A DNA stretch of 32,614 nucleotides from Candidatus Zhuqueibacterota bacterium (GCA_016931775.1 JAFGEC010000003.1:1-32614); one strand, 5' to 3'. Numbered from the stretch's first letter, positions 3,309 to 29,609 are shown. Notes: generated from the letters alone by a model not told the origin. Program-made: numbers and translations.

Positions 3309-3983
3309 TCAATCCTTTCCCACGATACAAAAACAGTTATACCAAAAGTTAGTGGGCCATAGAGCATTGCTAATAACTTCACTCGTTATTACACGACGTA
3401 AATCGCTATGAATTTGAAAGCCAGCTTTCTCAAGATTTTTTTTAAATATAACGGTTGTAGGATACCATTGAAAAAATCTACCAGGGCCTCCATAATTTTT
3501 TCCCATTTCTTTACTTGTTTCTATTCGGTGTTCTAGGTGACCGATAATTGCATTTACAAGCATACATCCATTTTTTTTTAATATTTGTCTAAATCTTTTC
3601 AGCACAGAATCAACATTTTCCTTTGGAATGTGAGGAAGAGAGGCGCACACCCATAAGCCATCAAATTCACTATTCCCATAGTCAAGTTCAATCATGTCGA
3701 GTTTACGTGTTTTTATGCGAGGATCCCTCCTTGCAGCGATTCGAAGCATATTTGCAGAGTTATCGATTGCTTCAACCGCAAATCCCTTGTCAATAAAATA
3801 GCTGCTGTAGTGGCCAGGCCCACAGCCAACATCCAGTATTCTATTGCCGTTCAGCATGGTAATAAATTCGTCGGCTAATTGTAGATCGGGCTTCTTCGCC
3901 CATTGTTTTGTGTACTCGTACGCCAGGAAATCATAGGCTTTTCGATTTTGTTCGACAATTGTTCGAACATTAAAGGGACTCAT
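3309..3983 (-). CDS. Class I SAM-dependent methyltransferase (cassette gene 5)
   Basis: The 224-residue protein is a compact Rossmann-fold methyltransferase. Motif I (ILDVGCGPGHY) is at residues 49-59, followed by an acidic motif II (VEAIDNSANML) and a motif IV/V region containing LWVCASLPHIP. The C-terminal part carries GRFFQWY and EKAGF, a layout shared with the methyltransferase domains of cassette genes 2 and 3. The ATG directly follows the TAG of the PfkB-like gene with no intervening base, and GGAG sits eight bases upstream within that gene's end, so translation is coupled. It is the last gene of the cassette. The substrate is unknown; a small molecule is more likely than DNA because no target-recognition domain is present. 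Confidence 0.85.
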   Translation of the reverse strand: MSPFNVRTIVEQNRKAYDFLAYEYTKQWAKKPDLQLADEFITMLNGNRILDVGCGPGHYSSYFIDKGFAVEAIDNSANMLRIAARRDPRIKTRKLDMIELDYGNSEFDGLWVCASLPHIPKENVDSVLKRFRQILKKNGCMLVNAIIGHLEHRIETSKEMGKNYGGPGRFFQWYPTTVIFKKNLEKAGFQIHSDLRRVITSEVISNALWPTNFWYNCFCIVGKD

Positions 3984-4892
3984 CTATAATCTCCGAGAAG
4001 CAGCTTTTCTTACGTTTTCAAGCCACTGATTTGATTCAAAGAGCAATCTTGGATTAATAATATACTGTTGCATAACATGAGCAATAATGCGATCTGTAAA
4101 TCGTAGAGATGCCACAGTGCGGCAGTATGGAATAGTGAAAGCCTTTTTATGCCTCCTATCAGCAATGAAGAAATCACTCTTATCATTTATCCGGATCAAA
4201 CAGAATTCAAAGTCGCTAAGAAGTATTTGGACGGCTTCTTCAGGTCGTAGAGCACCAAGTACCCCGGAGTGGAAAGCGGAAACTGTGTCTATCTCAACAG
4301 CAACACCTTCAGCACAAGAACAGGATTCTACGTATTCTCGCCAAGATATCGTTCGCCATACATCATGAGGAACAATGTCGACAAAAACCTTTGCATTTGC
4401 CGCATGAAATATGTTAGCGATTTTATGAATCGCCGTACACTGATTGTTATCTAATAGCATATAACCCGAAATATAGAGCATATCTGATTTATCGGCAATC
4501 TCTGCGAGTAATTCGACACCAGGAACACGGAAATCACGATTTGCTCCTCTATCCGCAATCATGATGCGGTGATCATCAGGTTGATAGACAATAATTACTT
4601 GTCCTGTATGATGATTGCTCGGTAAGTTGTGGACGACCACTCCATTTTTTTGCATGTGTTCACGCGCCTGTCGTCCGGCAATATCCTCACCAATTGAGCA
4701 CATTACAGTTACATTACTATATCCTGCATCGCACGCAGCTTCCGAAAAAAATACTGCATTTCCTCCCACACTTGAGCTAATAAGATTGTGGAAGCAGGAA
4801 TTCGTTTCACCTCGAAGATAAATATGGGATAAATCTGAGATATAATCTATCGTCACATCTCCAATAATGCAGCAAGATATGCGGCTCTTCAA
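3984..4892 (-). CDS. PfkB/ribokinase-fold protein with degenerate active site (cassette gene 4)
   Basis: I place the start at a TTG (4892) that overlaps the TGA stop of the TIR gene as TTGA, with GGTGGAG just upstream. This gives 302 residues beginning MKSRISCCIIGDVTIDY, as in ribokinase-family N-termini; an ATG 12 codons earlier is possible but lies inside the upstream gene. The substrate-side motif GGNAVFFSEAA matches the family GGNAxNxA pattern. The C-terminal DTxGAGD signature is changed to ASLRFTD: the final Asp (residue 267, the usual catalytic base) is kept, but the Gly-Ala-Gly anion hole is lost. The family phosphorylates sugars or nucleosides. This member may be a weak kinase, a binding protein or a pseudokinase. 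Its place in a TIR/HIT/methyltransferase operon suggests a nucleoside-like ligand, which is inference. Confidence 0.8.
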   Translation of the reverse strand: MKSRISCCIIGDVTIDYISDLSHIYLRGETNSCFHNLISSSVGGNAVFFSEAACDAGYSNVTVMCSIGEDIAGRQAREHMQKNGVVVHNLPSNHHTGQVIIVYQPDDHRIMIADRGANRDFRVPGVELLAEIADKSDMLYISGYMLLDNNQCTAIHKIANIFHAANAKVFVDIVPHDVWRTISWREYVESCSCAEGVAVEIDTVSAFHSGVLGALRPEEAVQILLSDFEFCLIRINDKSDFFIADRRHKKAFTIPYCRTVASLRFTDRIIAHVMQQYIINPRLLFESNQWLENVRKAASRRL

Positions 4893-7483
4893 TTCTCCAC
4901 CCTCTTTCTGCAAATAAAATGTGCCCATTTGGTAGGATAAGGACTGCGATACATAGATGAGGTTTTACTCGTGATTGTCACATCATCCACATAAAATCCC
5001 GCATTCTCAATATATCTCTGGATTTCATCATAATTCGCATAAAATTCAAAAAAACGACCGTCGATTCCGATCAGTGTGTGATCATTAACCTTGAAATTTG
5101 CAAACAAAAACCCATCATTTGAGAGTATTTCATGGAACGAGCGAAGAATTTGAGGCATCAGATTTTTACTTACGTGAAATAATACAGCATCTGCAAAGAT
5201 AATTTTATACGAGTGTTTTAATACTAAACCATCAGATTTAAGTTTGTTAGGAAGATCCTCAATGCTGCCTTGAATGAGCGCATACTTGTCCTTATCGAAT
5301 CCCCCTGCAACCAATTGGGTTTTAATTCGTTTCAGAATCCGACTTGAACAATCGTAAAAATGAACTCGATACCCTTTCGGCAAGAATTCATTGATGGCAT
5401 GGGCTCCGCTACCGCATCCTACATCCAGAATCCAAGAATCAACCCTAGTGTCGACATTCACCAAATAATTAAACAAGTGAAACCACTTTTTGTTAAACTG
5501 GCGGTTCTTATTAATAGCTGTGTTATAATCTGACAGTTTGGTTTCAAAAAATTGTTTTGTATCAAGGATTGATTTATTTACTACTCCTTTCCATTGATGA
5601 TACATTTCCTTTTGTGCCTCAGAAGGGATATAAAATCCTGGAAGCAACTTGGTTATAAAAAGATTTTTTATATCACTAATGGTTGGTAGTAGATTATGGC
5701 CATCCGGAAATTCTTCGAGGAATTTTTGATCTTTGTCTATTTCTTTAAAAAGAAGGGGGACATCCGAATATTCCTGGTGAAAAATCCACAGGATTAGGCT
5801 AAGTAGGTTTCTTTCAGTCGCACCAAAATTTAGAATGTGGTTAACCTGGCTATCTAGCTGTTGAAGTGCTGCAGGTGTAGGTGGTTTACAAATACCAAGT
5901 GCAGATGAAAATGATACTCCATGGGTGAGCATAAACACATTATGGTTGCGAAGTTGTGAAAACAGGATTTCTATCGCTTTTGCAATCTGGGGCGGTTCTG
6001 CTCCACAGCGGGCATTAGCCCACCAGTATTCGGCGGTATGTCCCCAATCAGGATCGACCAGATACCCACCTAATGTACATTGCACAAGACCAGAAGCATC
6101 ACAGTTGTTATGAATTTGGTATAAATCTGTAAAATATGAATCTTTTTCAAGCGGCGTCTCTCCGCTGAGGCTCCATAAGAATGTCAAATTTAACAAGAAT
6201 CCCGAGCCATTTTTAGGATCGGGGTAAGCATCTAAAAAATTTTGGCTTTCATAATTTTCATTATGAACAAGATCACGAATTTTTGGAAGGATATCTTTAA
6301 GATTATTAAGCGCCCTGCGTGCAACATTGGCGCTCGTCATAAAAAAATCGTAATCCAATAAATGTTTAAGAAATGTTATTGCACAATAGATTTCGAATCT
6401 TCGAGCGTCCGAGCGCCCATTCGTTTTTAACTTTAAATACCGTCCATGGTCACAAAGATACCTGCACATGACCTGAAGGCTTCCCAAAAAAGTACGATCG
6501 CAATGGCGAGCTGAAAGAAAATATGACAACAAAAGCACAATAATACCCAGTAATGTGTGATGCAGGTCCGTATCGGGATTACGTTCCCACCGATCAGGTA
6601 TGGCTCCCTCCATGTTAATTCGATCCTGAATATAGCGAATTGCATGCTTTGCAACTTTATTTCGTTCTTCAACTGATTCAATTTCGGTTAATAATTGCTT
6701 AAATGCCTCAGAGTTATGGTCATTCAGGATTTCTTCAGCTCTTTTCCCTTTCCCTATAACACTGCATAATGAACGCGTATAAGTGAGTAAAGCAACACAC
6801 GTAAGATTCATCCCCCCTATCTTTCGCAAGTCAAATCCTCTGGACCTGCCTTCTTCAGTATCGCCTTTTATTCTCTGATACCACATTGGAAGGCTTCGTG
6901 CCCAGCCGCCCGACGGTAATTGTTCGAGCCGTAGAAAAGCATACGCAAGTCTCCATAACACGGCCTCACTTACGGAATTGCCTTCAGTTTGACGTTCGAC
7001 TTTACCAGAATCCCCAGAAGAAAAATCCGGCACACTTACGTCAATGAGTCGAGGTGGTTTTTTACCGGTGATACCCCAGACCAGCCTCTGTACATTTGTG
7101 CTATATGCAGCTTCATCTTGAAAATCAACCGCATTGTATCCAGCTAGAAATTCTGGTAGTTTAGCAATTCGATAAATCACCGGTATCAGATTAAATTCTG
7201 GATTTTCATTTATCCGTAATGTAAAAGCTCGCGAGTACTCCAATTCTACCCAGCGCGATTCCATTGCCTTGGGTGACACAATCAGCACCATCGCATTGCT
7301 GCTCGACAAACCTCGCTCCAGCGCCTTTATAACAAGTTCACCGGGTTTGATTTCATCAACGTCTAACCACACAGTCACATCATAACAAGATAAATCGTTT
7401 TTGAGCTTGATGGCCATTGCTCTATCATCACTTTTATAACTCAAAAATACATCAAATCGATCTTTTTTTATTTCTGAATTCAT
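4889..7483 (-). CDS. TIR domain - alpha-helical toroid-like region - SAM methyltransferase fusion (cassette gene 3)
   Basis: I choose the ATG at 7483: AGGAGG lies nine bases upstream and the gap to the previous stop is 4 nt. A longer reading from 7555 would overlap gene 2. The 864-residue product has three parts. Residues 8-140 form a TIR domain: RFDVFLSYKSDD at the start, WLDVDEIKPG in the middle, and SRWVELEYSRAF carrying the conserved Glu82, which occupies the NADase position (W plus four). Residues about 170-640 are helical with a QW-like EQLPSGGW near 187 and further Trp/His-rich helices, reminiscent of prenyltransferase or terpenoid-cyclase alpha/alpha toroids, though this is tentative. 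Residues 684-864 are a class I methyltransferase (WILDVGCGSG motif I; ADAVLFHV; DGRFFEFY). TIR domains cleave NAD or signal in immunity; fusion to a methyltransferase is unusual. Confidence 0.85.
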   Translation of the reverse strand: MNSEIKKDRFDVFLSYKSDDRAMAIKLKNDLSCYDVTVWLDVDEIKPGELVIKALERGLSSSNAMVLIVSPKAMESRWVELEYSRAFTLRINENPEFNLIPVIYRIAKLPEFLAGYNAVDFQDEAAYSTNVQRLVWGITGKKPPRLIDVSVPDFSSGDSGKVERQTEGNSVSEAVLWRLAYAFLRLEQLPSGGWARSLPMWYQRIKGDTEEGRSRGFDLRKIGGMNLTCVALLTYTRSLCSVIGKGKRAEEILNDHNSEAFKQLLTEIESVEERNKVAKHAIRYIQDRINMEGAIPDRWERNPDTDLHHTLLGIIVLLLSYFLSARHCDRTFLGSLQVMCRYLCDHGRYLKLKTNGRSDARRFEIYCAITFLKHLLDYDFFMTSANVARRALNNLKDILPKIRDLVHNENYESQNFLDAYPDPKNGSGFLLNLTFLWSLSGETPLEKDSYFTDLYQIHNNCDASGLVQCTLGGYLVDPDWGHTAEYWWANARCGAEPPQIAKAIEILFSQLRNHNVFMLTHGVSFSSALGICKPPTPAALQQLDSQVNHILNFGATERNLLSLILWIFHQEYSDVPLLFKEIDKDQKFLEEFPDGHNLLPTISDIKNLFITKLLPGFYIPSEAQKEMYHQWKGVVNKSILDTKQFFETKLSDYNTAINKNRQFNKKWFHLFNYLVNVDTRVDSWILDVGCGSGAHAINEFLPKGYRVHFYDCSSRILKRIKTQLVAGGFDKDKYALIQGSIEDLPNKLKSDGLVLKHSYKIIFADAVLFHVSKNLMPQILRSFHEILSNDGFLFANFKVNDHTLIGIDGRFFEFYANYDEIQRYIENAGFYVDDVTITSKTSSMYRSPYPTKWAHFICRKRVEN

Positions 7484-7487
7484 TCCT

Positions 7488-8978
7488 TCATTCCTCCTGT
7501 TTCCGGCTTTTGCAGAGTAAATAGTGAATCCAATGCTTGGTTCGCTTTTCTCCAAGTGTTCCTATTGTTGTCAATCCCTTCCAGGATTTTATTATCTGAA
7601 ATGAGGCATGCGCAAACAGCTTTTCCAGTTCGGATTTTTGATAATAAATAAACACGCGTCCTTCTCGACGTACTTCCAATGCCGGAATATCCTTACCGGT
7701 ATCTGTATATAATAATCGTGTCGACAAGTATAGCACACCCTGCTCTGCAAGTAATATGCTCAGTGTTTGCATAATTTGGTCAGCCCTTCTTCGTGGAATG
7801 TGGAGCAAAACAGCGCTGAACCATATCGCATCGAAGGGTGCATCAATTATCAATTCAATGTTATCAACCGGAGCTTGTACAAGTGTCACTGCCCTAGATT
7901 TTAGATTATCCGATAAAATATATTTTGCTTCTTGCAGCATTTTATTGGAAGGATCTACTGCTGTGCACCTGAATCCTAAATCGGCAAATAATTTGGTATA
8001 AAATCCAGGACCACAGCCAACATCCAAAAGCCGGATTGTTTCATCAGTACTTCGGTTACAGTCATTTGGAATATGGGAAAGGAAATATCCGACAGTATTG
8101 TACTGTAATGTACCTCGCCATCGTTTTTTAAATTTACCAGCAATTTTTTCGTAGGACCGTGTCGTCAATCCAGTAATAGAAGCTTCAAAGCTGAGCCGAG
8201 GCGGACCATTTTCCATGATAGTTATTCTATAATCAACACTATGCAACCTTGACCACTCTGAGAATGCGTTCCCAACGTTTCGTACTCGGTCTTCAGTAGG
8301 AAACTCGGCCCAATCCCACATTTTATCGTCCTTAACCAATTCGGCAAGCTTCCGCCTGAGGAACTGTGAAGCCAACGTGTGTTCATCAGATACGATAAAA
8401 ACTCGGGATTCCATGGGCAATCCACTCGTTGTTTCTCCGTCGCTGGAGCCATAATGTTCAATATAAAGATACGGAAGATTGCCCACAACAGCCTGTATTG
8501 TGTGTATACCTTTGCATTCACGTCGGTTAGGTAAGGCAAAGTGATCCCACAAATAAATGAGATCTCCATTATGGTTTGGAAAACCCGTACACTGTTTTAC
8601 GACACCGGGATAACAACAAAGATGCGGGTGATAGCAATGCTTGGTATCATCTCTTAATCGTGCACATCCACCTGCTCGACCATGCTCAAAGGATAAACCA
8701 GGGTGTCCATATATATCAATATAGAAAGCTGAAATCATCCCACGCAAAAAAGCCAATTCATCTAAAAGGCCGTACGAAAGCTCGGCAAAGGAAGTGCCTG
8801 GGCCACCATTCATCTTGCACTTATAAGGCGTTATTATCAAATAACCCTCGATTATGGCACCCAAACCAGCGAAAAGATAAAAATTGTCAGACTTGAGTAA
8901 TATTTGATCTCCCTGCCCATGACTCGAGGGATCACAGAAAAGACAAGAAGAGTAGTATTTGCTCATATCCGATATCAT
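7488..8978 (-). CDS. HIT-like domain - SAM methyltransferase fusion (cassette gene 2)
   Basis: The 496-residue protein starts at an ATG overlapping the preceding stop as TAATG. Residues 11-130 resemble the HIT (histidine triad) fold: a CLFC pair at 12-15, NFYLFAGLGAIIEGYLIITP (the GHxLIxP-type strand), SFEHG at 97-100, and an active-site element HPHLCCYPG at 117-125. The second His (119) fits the nucleophile, while the usual third His is Cys121. A linker containing MWDWAEFPTEDRV is also seen after HIT-type cores. Residues 270-496 form a class I methyltransferase with motif I LLDVGCGPGFY at 317-327, LLHIPRRR and EGRVFIYY. HIT enzymes hydrolyse or transfer nucleotidyl groups, so the fusion suggests a nucleotide-linked methylated product. 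The HIT call is by motif and is less certain than the methyltransferase call. Confidence 0.78.
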   Translation of the reverse strand: MISDMSKYYSSCLFCDPSSHGQGDQILLKSDNFYLFAGLGAIIEGYLIITPYKCKMNGGPGTSFAELSYGLLDELAFLRGMISAFYIDIYGHPGLSFEHGRAGGCARLRDDTKHCYHPHLCCYPGVVKQCTGFPNHNGDLIYLWDHFALPNRRECKGIHTIQAVVGNLPYLYIEHYGSSDGETTSGLPMESRVFIVSDEHTLASQFLRRKLAELVKDDKMWDWAEFPTEDRVRNVGNAFSEWSRLHSVDYRITIMENGPPRLSFEASITGLTTRSYEKIAGKFKKRWRGTLQYNTVGYFLSHIPNDCNRSTDETIRLLDVGCGPGFYTKLFADLGFRCTAVDPSNKMLQEAKYILSDNLKSRAVTLVQAPVDNIELIIDAPFDAIWFSAVLLHIPRRRADQIMQTLSILLAEQGVLYLSTRLLYTDTGKDIPALEVRREGRVFIYYQKSELEKLFAHASFQIIKSWKGLTTIGTLGEKRTKHWIHYLLCKSRKQEE

Positions 8979-10129
8979 TATTTCTCTTTATTCAGATTTT
9001 CAAGAGAATGTACCAGCGCCATGGTATCTTCTTCAGTCGTATTGTGACCGAAAGATATCCGTACTGCACCATCCGGCAAAGTCCCCAAGTCGAGATGCCT
9101 TAATGGTGCACAATGAAGTCCTGCACGCGCAAAAATTTGATATTTCACTTCAAGAGCCCGAGCAAAAGAGTGTACGTTCATATGCTTATGTTTTAAAGAA
9201 AATATAGGTACTCGAAAATCCGTACTGAGGGGATTAAATGAAAGAATATTATCCAGCATTAAAATTTTTTTTAACACCTCATCAAAATGTTGCATAATTT
9301 TCCGTACAGACTCTTCTGCTTTAGGTGAAATAGCAAGCTCAAATGCTGGAATAGCCGCTGCAATAGCTGCTATATTGCTTGTGCCGGTTTCCAATCCACC
9401 TGGAATAATACTCTGCGGCAGCGAGTTTAACGTTTCCAGTCCAGTTCCTCCGTCGTAGAGTGGATTGAGCACTGCATCATCGTTGCCGATAACAAGCACT
9501 CCTAATCCAAATGGTCCCTGCAAACCTTTATGAAGGCCTGCTACAAAAAAATCTGCCCCGCAACATAACATCTCGGGACAAAGCCAGCCAGCCGATTGAG
9601 CACCGTCGACTAATACAGGAATTTTCATATCATTAGCCCGTCGGACAATTTCTTTGGTTGGAACAACAGTACCATCAACATTACTTGCGTGAGTTACGAC
9701 GGCAAGTTTGGTTCGATCATTAAAACATTCGACAAATCGTTCAACAAAGTCAGCCAAGCCTGATCTTGCGCGAACCGTCCTTGCGATCACTCCGGCTTCA
9801 CGGAGCTTAACAATTGGACGAATTACGGAATTATGATCAAACGATGAAGCAACGACTTCAGTTTCTGGTTTAAGAATTGACCGAATTACAAGATTAAGGG
9901 CTTCAGTGGCTCCTGAAGTGAATACAATGTGACTTGGCGATCTAGCTTTAAAATATTTACATGCCACTTCCCGTGCTTTGGCAACCACATCATTTGCTGC
10001 GTGTCCCAATCTGTGATCCGATCTGGATGGACTGGCACAAATGTTGTTATAGAATTCCAGTGTTGCCTCGACAACACCAGGGGCTTTTGGTCTTGAAGTT
10101 GTTGCGTGATCGAAGTAGTGGATATTCAT
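8978..10129 (-). CDS. Cysteine-desulfurase-like class V aminotransferase (cassette gene 1)
   Basis: The 383-residue protein matches the IscS/NifS/SufS-like class V fold along its length. It opens with YFDHATTSRP (substrate loop), has FTSGATEALNLVI at 70-82, a PLP-contacting Asp in VDGAQSAG (Asp175), the Schiff-base lysine in AGLHKGLQGP (Lys201), and RAGLHCAP with Cys340 at the position of the persulfide cysteine. It is therefore likely catalytically intact, releasing sulfur from cysteine, or alternatively acting as a related lyase. The stop overlaps the HIT-methyltransferase start. No IscU, SufE or tRNA-thiolation partner is nearby, so a role dedicated to the cassette is more plausible than housekeeping Fe-S assembly. 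The ATG lacks a good Shine-Dalgarno sequence and lies against an inverted repeat. Confidence 0.88.
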   Translation of the reverse strand: MNIHYFDHATTSRPKAPGVVEATLEFYNNICASPSRSDHRLGHAANDVVAKAREVACKYFKARSPSHIVFTSGATEALNLVIRSILKPETEVVASSFDHNSVIRPIVKLREAGVIARTVRARSGLADFVERFVECFNDRTKLAVVTHASNVDGTVVPTKEIVRRANDMKIPVLVDGAQSAGWLCPEMLCCGADFFVAGLHKGLQGPFGLGVLVIGNDDAVLNPLYDGGTGLETLNSLPQSIIPGGLETGTSNIAAIAAAIPAFELAISPKAEESVRKIMQHFDEVLKKILMLDNILSFNPLSTDFRVPIFSLKHKHMNVHSFARALEVKYQIFARAGLHCAPLRHLDLGTLPDGAVRISFGHNTTEEDTMALVHSLENLNKEK

Positions 10130-28669: not shown

Positions 28670-29431
28670 TCACGAAACAATCTTGTCGACAAAATATTCC
28701 GGGACGGCTTTTATTTTTTTCAAAACATCTTGCCACAAACTTTCCGCTTCGATTAAAAATGATTCGGCAGATAAAACCGGACCGGTTTTCAGGGTGGATA
28801 TGCGGACGACATTCTGAATTCGTTCATACCGCTGTTCCCATCCCTTAAAATTATGCTGCAGATACGATTTTCGAATGCTCCGGCCGGATTCGACGACCAG
28901 TTCATATTCCAGCCAGTCTCCGAACAAATACGGCGGCTCGGTTTTTTCTTCGATCGCATGCATGGATGTATTTGGTTTTAATCCACAACCAAGCATAAGA
29001 ATCTGTCCGTTATATTCTGGCAAAATGTGAAATGGTGAAAAAGAACCGCAGGGCGTGTGGTCACGGTGGTGTTGTGCCAGAATTCGTTCAGCCAGAAAAC
29101 CCGTTCCGCAAACCGAATGGGTCGGATGGATGCTTCTTTTTGAGCCCTTACGTTTACGAAAATACTCGGGGATCGCTCCGACACATACGGGCGTTTGTAA
29201 AACATCAAACAGCGGATTTTTCTCATTTACGTTTTCATAACTCAGGGCCGGCATCAGCAGTGTTCCACCGGGACCGAGCGCATCGAGTAATCCACGAATC
29301 ACAGTTTCGGCGCCGCCATTCACATGTCCCATGGATTTTAACGAAGAATGCACCATCAGAACACCACCCGGCCGGACGCCCAGCTCCAGTAAATTTTGAC
29401 GGATTTGATTTTCTTGATTTTCAGAATTCAT
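28670..29431 (-). CDS. AAC(3)-family (aminoglycoside N3-acetyltransferase-like) protein
   Basis: I prefer the ATG at 29431 (253 residues), since homologous sequence begins at ENQIRQNLLELGVRPGG. The frame is open to 29521, where 30 extra residues look non-homologous; neither start has a clear ribosome-binding site. Family motifs are present: LMVHSSLKSMGHVNGGAETV, GTLLMPALSYEN, SIHPTHSVCGTG, DHTPCGSFSPF and LMLGCGL, covering the acetyl-CoA and active-site regions (HPTHS, TPCG). Many proteins of this fold lie in carbohydrate operons and acetylate amino sugars. Its position between an AGE epimerase and a sulfatase makes that more likely than drug resistance. Confidence 0.85.
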   Translation of the reverse strand: MNSENQENQIRQNLLELGVRPGGVLMVHSSLKSMGHVNGGAETVIRGLLDALGPGGTLLMPALSYENVNEKNPLFDVLQTPVCVGAIPEYFRKRKGSKRSIHPTHSVCGTGFLAERILAQHHRDHTPCGSFSPFHILPEYNGQILMLGCGLKPNTSMHAIEEKTEPPYLFGDWLEYELVVESGRSIRKSYLQHNFKGWEQRYERIQNVVRISTLKTGPVLSAESFLIEAESLWQDVLKKIKAVPEYFVDKIVS

Positions 29432-29609
29432 GCAATCAGAACAAAATATGAATAAATGTTTTTTTCGACATCGCCTTGTGAATATATTATACCCAAAATT
29501 ACCTTCATCCATCCTTTTCATGTAGATGACAATATGTCTGCCGGAATCATTGGCTGAAAAATTTACATTTCATTCTGATGCAACAGTGAAAAAAAATAGA
29601 ATCATGTTA

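Follow-up and report, generated by a model that had tools for sequence, protein, structure and literature searches.

Five same-strand genes in a Candidatus Zhuqueibacterota genome (GCA_016931775.1 JAFGEC010000003.1:1-32614) raise the question of what kind of pathway would bring together a cysteine desulfurase-like enzyme, a HIT domain, a TIR domain, a PfkB-like protein and three methyltransferase domains. Throughout, the window means the whole 32,614-nucleotide stretch that was analysed. The initial annotation offered two answers, a modified and possibly sulfur-containing nucleotide or a conflict response. We put at about even the chance that the genes form a horizontally acquired enzymatic cassette for making or processing a nucleotide-like molecule that is methylated and possibly bears sulfur.

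Gene structure and domain composition

The five ORFs are intact and lie head to tail on the minus strand, from 10129 to 3309 in the window:

8978..10129, minus strand: class V PLP enzyme, type II cysteine desulfurase / selenocysteine lyase-like, 383 aa
7488..8978, minus strand: HIT domain (CWF19/CwfJ-like, residues ~1-300) fused to a SAM methyltransferase (~310-470), 496 aa
4889..7483, minus strand: TIR domain, all-helical "toroid-like" region and SAM methyltransferase, 864 aa
3984..4892, minus strand: PfkB/ribokinase-like protein, 302 aa from TTG
3309..3983, minus strand: stand-alone SAM methyltransferase, 224 aa

In gene order the junctions are TAATG, TGA-AGGA-ATG (a 4-nt gap), TTGA and TAG-ATG, exactly the arrangement that had first been described. 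Two starts were refined. The TIR gene is taken to begin at the ATG at 7483, which has a GGAGG-like site upstream, with a longer TTG ORF beginning at 7555. The PfkB-like gene is taken to begin at the TTG at 4892, preceded by the ribosome-binding-like site GAGGGTGG (302 aa); an alternative ATG at 4928 gives 314 aa. The PLP desulfurase-like, TIR, ribokinase-fold and three methyltransferase domains of the initial annotation were all recovered by Pfam, with matches to Aminotran_5, TIR_2 and PfkB and to a methyltransferase family in each of the three proteins concerned.

The PLP protein matches Aminotran_5 at 9.5e-64. Its best NCBIfam model is TIGR01977 (EF2568 cysteine desulfurase family), at 273 bits, below the cut-off of 377. 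Matches to SufS structures reach 4e-35, and both the PLP lysine (HK) and the cysteine of RAGLHCAP align, so that the two residues which mark type II cysteine desulfurases (SufS/EF2568) are present. Judged from its sequence the protein is desulfurase-like, with the catalytic Lys and Cys in place. It is 30% identical over its whole length to a PLP protein on the Lactococcus plasmid pUC06C.

Pfam finds the methyltransferase domain of the second protein (SAM motif DVGCGPG at 319), while the HIT-like domain that had been claimed falls below its thresholds and is supported by homology instead, through tblastn and a family profile searched against the PDB. With the window protein as query, tblastn found an annotated HIT protein on pUC06C (23.5% identity, 5e-6), which passes the Pfam HIT cut-off by itself. 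Searched alone against the PDB the window protein gave no match. A profile of ten relatives (A5), with invariant G, E, G, H, P, Y, Q, R, A and W, matched solved HIT/CWF19 structures, the best being CWF19L1 over positions 8-196 at 2e-12. Since this alignment takes in the C-terminal QFxRxxA...DW segment, the family belongs with the CWF19/CwfJ-like HIT subfamily and not with plain Hint proteins; at the level of the family profile both the HIT core and the CwfJ C-terminal extension are found. One homologue (L122) has a sub-threshold match to CwfJ_C_2 (4.4e-4). HIT enzymes work through a nucleotidyl-histidine intermediate. The superfamily motif HxHxHxx reads HPHLC at 117 in the window protein, which keeps the nucleophile position and has Cys for the third His. 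In Lactococcus and Streptomyces the triad is HAHNH or HAHLH, with all three His kept in L034 and L051. In another locus (L079:7556-8848) an N-terminal transmembrane segment and a helical region are followed by a CWF19-type HIT domain in one fusion.

The third protein matches TIR_2 at 1.3e-22 and has a methyltransferase domain with the SAM motif DVGCGSG at 687. The solved TIR domains nearest to it are 7uxr, 3h16 and the TIR-SAVED structure 7qqk, and AbTIR is also matched. The glutamate that catalytic TIR domains carry in a conserved helix is found in the segment SRWVELE, which aligns with 7uxr and 3h16; residue 82 (W+4) is the putative catalytic Glu, and the domain looks catalytically competent. 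The TIR and methyltransferase parts of the proposed TIR-toroid-methyltransferase architecture therefore stand. The toroid itself is tentative: a low-confidence AlphaFold model (mean pLDDT ~40) shows only helices here, the sequence carries a QxxxGGW-like motif, and the region has no relative in Pfam, the PDB, plasmids or phages. The AlphaFold models were built on two-sequence alignments and were too poor in quality for a fold search. A LanC-like reading of the region, prompted by the kinase fusion in the relative described below, was provisionally set aside, no conserved zinc-ligand pattern being seen by eye.

For the fourth protein the assignment to PfkB holds (1.9e-14), with the match confined to the N-terminal half (profile positions 3-171 of 302), and one correction is needed. 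The GAGD anion-hole/catalytic motif of PfkB/ribokinase proteins is missing: aligned with four intact PfkB proteins, DxxGAGD becomes ASLRFTD, with a sole Asp left. The loss of this motif and the half-length match make ordinary kinase activity doubtful, and the protein is probably non-canonical or inactive as a kinase. The stand-alone methyltransferase matches Methyltransf_25 at 8.7e-17, has the SAM motif DVGCGPG at 51, and is the top within-genome match of the methyltransferase domain in the HIT fusion (31% identity).

Distribution and origin

A second five-gene locus was not found in 82 genomes of the phylum, in 396, 395 and 393 genomes sampled around the genome of the relative L035, on PLSDB plasmids, among INPHARED phages or in IMG/VR. 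The proposal that the same set might recur in the same order across phyla thus fails for the five genes as a whole and holds for three sub-sets: the HIT-methyltransferase with an X-helical-methyltransferase protein; the desulfurase with HIT; and PfkB with desulfurase, HIT and methyltransferase.

None of the phylum's other 81 genomes has the helical region, and in a sample of 395 genomes from the class to which L035's genome belongs it occurs once, in L035 itself. The GC3 of the cassette is 0.315-0.372, against 0.46-0.49 in the genes to its right, while the genes to its left are likewise low (0.34-0.39). Rarity and GC3 are both consistent with horizontal acquisition, for which composition alone is a weak argument given the low values on the left.

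The cassette's neighbours in the window encode a beta-galactosidase, a secreted LRR/PKD protein, DUF975, beta-lactamase-fold, GH97, GNAT, CBM9, AAC(3)-like and GlcNAc-2-epimerase-like proteins. The gene at 28670-29521, for an aminoglycoside 3-N-acetyltransferase-family protein (Antibiotic_NAT, 9.9e-53), lies in a carbohydrate-related neighbourhood.

The closest relative and the question of defence

A single scan of genome contigs gave one relative, L035, which lies on a phage-like contig that was binned into a MAG named "uncultured Bacteroidia bacterium". Its HIT-methyltransferase is 39% identical to that of the window over its length and is further fused to a ThiL/AIRS-type domain (ThiL-type kinase). 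The next gene encodes an APH-helical-methyltransferase protein, 31% identical to the helical-methyltransferase region of the window over ~700 residues, and a UDP-GlcNAc-pyrophosphorylase-like gene follows (4e-40 to a solved enzyme). The order of HIT-methyltransferase and X-helical-methyltransferase is that of the window, but X is an APH-type kinase and not a TIR domain, and the ThiL-type fusion and the pyrophosphorylase-like gene are further differences. No PfkB or lone methyltransferase gene was seen adjoining, and a PLP search of the contig found no desulfurase. A TIR domain has thus been swapped for a kinase on one helical-methyltransferase chassis, an exchange which favours small-molecule handling and equally fits exchangeable effectors.

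Phage families are well represented on the 54.9-kb contig, among them a head-maturation protease (7.5e-38) and a phage-type DNA ligase. One end of it (L057:6397-13945) holds TmtA-like and PDC-S11 defence genes, ~16 kb from the cassette, and also encodes a possible restriction-type protein. A rival reading is anti-phage (abortive) defence, in which the HIT, desulfurase and methyltransferase enzymes would make or remove a nucleotide signal on infection and the TIR domain would then destroy NAD. TIR domains are common immunity markers and uncommon in biosynthetic clusters; that of the window is nearest to bacterial NADase/immune TIRs and has the catalytic Glu, and the cassette is rare and patchy in distribution. 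Yet scanning proteins from the rest of the window turned up no recognised defence gene, the relative on the phage-like contig has the APH-type kinase where the TIR would be, and the core relatives lie in biosynthetic-looking clusters. We consider defence unlikely, if a reading to be taken seriously, and the conflict half of the initial annotation is left with a competent-looking TIR in its favour and with the same two observations on window and relative against it.

The desulfurase-HIT pair on plasmids and chromosomes

On Lactococcus pUC06C, a class V PLP gene and a HIT gene (4-nt ATGA overlap) stand with a gene for an EamA-like transporter/exporter, with IS elements around. On a second Lactococcus plasmid (L054:7442-8643) the PLP gene is shortened and the HIT gene interrupted; both lie between IS elements, apparently as decaying copies of the pair. 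The exporter would also suit resistance or detoxification. Here the HIT-methyltransferase would act on a nucleotide antibiotic in the way that MccH-type HIT hydrolases inactivate processed microcin C, with the remaining enzymes modifying the drug. MccH-type enzymes cleave phosphoramidates in nucleotide antibiotics, and resistance to peptide-nucleotide antibiotics through HIT hydrolases is known (PMC7157772). Such a role leaves the desulfurase, the three methyltransferases and the TIR domain unexplained, and the HIT triad of the window has Cys for its third His; we regard it as very doubtful.

Two Streptomyces plasmids, pSMg1-2 and NBC_01278 unnamed2, carry genes for a DCD-like (dCTP-deaminase-like) protein, HIT, an uncharacterised protein of 313-314 aa and a NifS/IscS-type cysteine desulfurase. 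Their loci (L051:6431-12743 and L053:4455-10747) also have MazG-like, exo/endophosphatase-methyltransferase and LysR genes in common, and one of the two lies near a phage portal gene.

Rhizobium leguminosarum pRL1 (L070:37-9353) holds an unannotated biosynthetic cluster of nucleoside type, with inositol-1-phosphate-synthase-like, DJ-1, dTMP-kinase-like, PRPP-synthetase-like, SDR and RidA-like genes, then PfkB (intact DPTGAGDAF), a NifS/DndA-type desulfurase, a HIT gene overlapping the desulfurase gene by 4 nt, TrpD, a methyltransferase and a PhyH-like dioxygenase. It shares with the window PfkB, a class V cysteine desulfurase, HIT and a SAM methyltransferase in one same-strand gene run. It differs in its intact GAGD, in a desulfurase of type I, in having neither TIR nor helical region, and in the added inositol-phosphate-synthase, PRPP-synthetase, TrpD and dTMP-kinase homologues and the dioxygenase. 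No description of this cluster was found in the open-access literature; its composition suggests a carbocyclic or otherwise unusual nucleotide as product.

In a genome of the window's class (L122:9064-10228) a full-length CWF19-type HIT gene (1.5e-37) is directly followed by a nucleoside-2-deoxyribosyltransferase-like gene. The partners of this HIT subfamily other than desulfurases are nucleotide enzymes, namely dCTP-deaminase-like, nucleoside-deoxyribosyltransferase-like and MazG-like. Three Bacteroidota loci (L080:6413-10153, L081:7168-10881 and L082:1742-5445) have a conserved order of CWF19-type HIT, small membrane protein and a protein of 826-839 aa. By eye this last protein resembles ATP-grasp enzymes of the PEP-synthase/PPDK kind, and one copy has a weak MazG-like match.

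Counting plasmid records in which the HIT match covers ~80% or more of the Lactococcus query, five of six have a class V desulfurase gene or its remnant in the same gene run, the Parabacteroides record being the one without. With chromosomal relatives included, the pairing is seen in 4 of ~9 independent lineages of the HIT family. The paired desulfurases come from two different subfamilies, which argues for functional selection and not for simple co-inheritance. What recurs at these loci, which span several phyla, is a CWF19-type HIT enzyme paired with a cysteine desulfurase, each time among nucleotide, sugar-phosphate, transporter or methyltransferase genes.

Proposed function

We prefer the synthesis or processing of a modified nucleotide-like molecule because the core relatives in Rhizobium, Lactococcus, Streptomyces, L035 and L122 sit in nucleotide-type gene clusters, and because the genes flanking the cassette in the window are for glycoside hydrolases and secreted proteins and not for defence. 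The nucleotide half of the initial annotation gains in the same way from the desulfurase and HIT genes in Lactococcus, Streptomyces and Rhizobium, the last with PfkB and methyltransferase as well. In such a pathway the desulfurase would mobilise sulfur from cysteine. The HIT domain would form a nucleotidyl-histidine intermediate and pass the nucleotidyl group to a small acceptor, possibly sulfur, and the methyltransferases would methylate the product. The TIR-helical-methyltransferase protein might release an ADP-ribosyl-type precursor from NAD or gate the pathway; from its sequence, the TIR domain could supply an NAD-derived ADP-ribosyl donor or act as executioner. The PfkB-like protein may bind a nucleoside or sugar, perhaps without phosphorylating it.

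Several observations count against this function. The whole set was found once, and desulfurase and HIT are linked in only 4 of the ~9 lineages. In the window the cassette lacks an exporter, a resistance gene and any evident scaffold-forming enzyme, and the PfkB protein looks inactive. Cysteine desulfurases can also serve FeS or tRNA chemistry, and the present one might do so instead, and a TIR domain would be unusual in a biosynthetic cluster.

A more specific proposal is that the CWF19-type HIT enzyme and the cysteine desulfurase build a P-S (or other sulfur-bearing) methylated nucleotide, with the TIR domain supplying or gating an NAD-derived precursor, as an undescribed kind of system. We think this rather improbable. 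If true, an immune-type TIR would work in the synthesis of a metabolite or in a new signalling pathway. Hardly any small natural products with P-S bonds are known, a review counting two reported cases besides S-phosphocysteine and DNA phosphorothioation (PMC6429109). HINT1, a HIT enzyme, is reported to release H2Se by hydrolysing a nucleoside selenophosphate, and the thiophosphate was compared in the same work (PMC8775712). Given this chemistry and the recurring desulfurase-HIT pair, the reverse reaction is directly testable. Sulfamate nucleoside clusters (ascamycin, nucleocidin) were considered and set aside, the published cluster descriptions searched having no HIT or desulfurase.

Comparison with known systems

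No named system with this gene set was found in the open-access literature, including a reappraisal of DNA phosphorothioation and work on conflict systems, which agrees with the first reading of the locus. Family model searches of the cassette proteins also bore out the claimed absence of Thoeris ThsA, a CBASS cyclase and, apart from a superfamily-level match of the desulfurase, Dnd/Ssp components. Thoeris combines a ThsB-type TIR with ThsA (SIR2/SLOG) or another effector. The window shares with Thoeris and other TIR NADase systems the TIR fold and the catalytic Glu, but ThsA was matched by none of the six proteins scanned, no other effector is present, and the TIR is joined to a helical region and a methyltransferase. 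Matches to ThsB models are weak (47.6 bits for ThcB4 of Thoeris type III, cut-off 220). For CBASS of the TIR-SAVED type only the TIR part matches, with no CD-NTase or SAVED among the cassette proteins, and for the multi-gene MADS set only generic methyltransferase matches to mad2 were seen (~110-150 residues).

Dnd/Ssp systems pair the desulfurase with a DndC/SspD-type ATP pyrophosphatase and DndD/E or SspB/C, of which only the desulfurase (SspA/DndA) is matched, at superfamily level. This family-level likeness, and the fact that CWF19 proteins function in RNA metabolism, would allow the cassette to thiolate and methylate DNA or RNA as a distant analogue of phosphorothioation. With no DndC/SspD-type sulfur-activating ATPase or nuclease, and with methyltransferases closer to small-molecule types than to DNA methyltransferases, we find nucleic-acid modification highly improbable.

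With CWF19/CwfJ proteins such as CWF19L1 the family shares the HIT core and the C-terminal extension, whereas the relatives described here are bacterial and sit in nucleotide-enzyme operons, and the window copy is fused to a methyltransferase and has its altered triad. The loci tie bacterial mobile elements to CWF19-type HIT proteins, a group known otherwise from RNA metabolism in eukaryotes.
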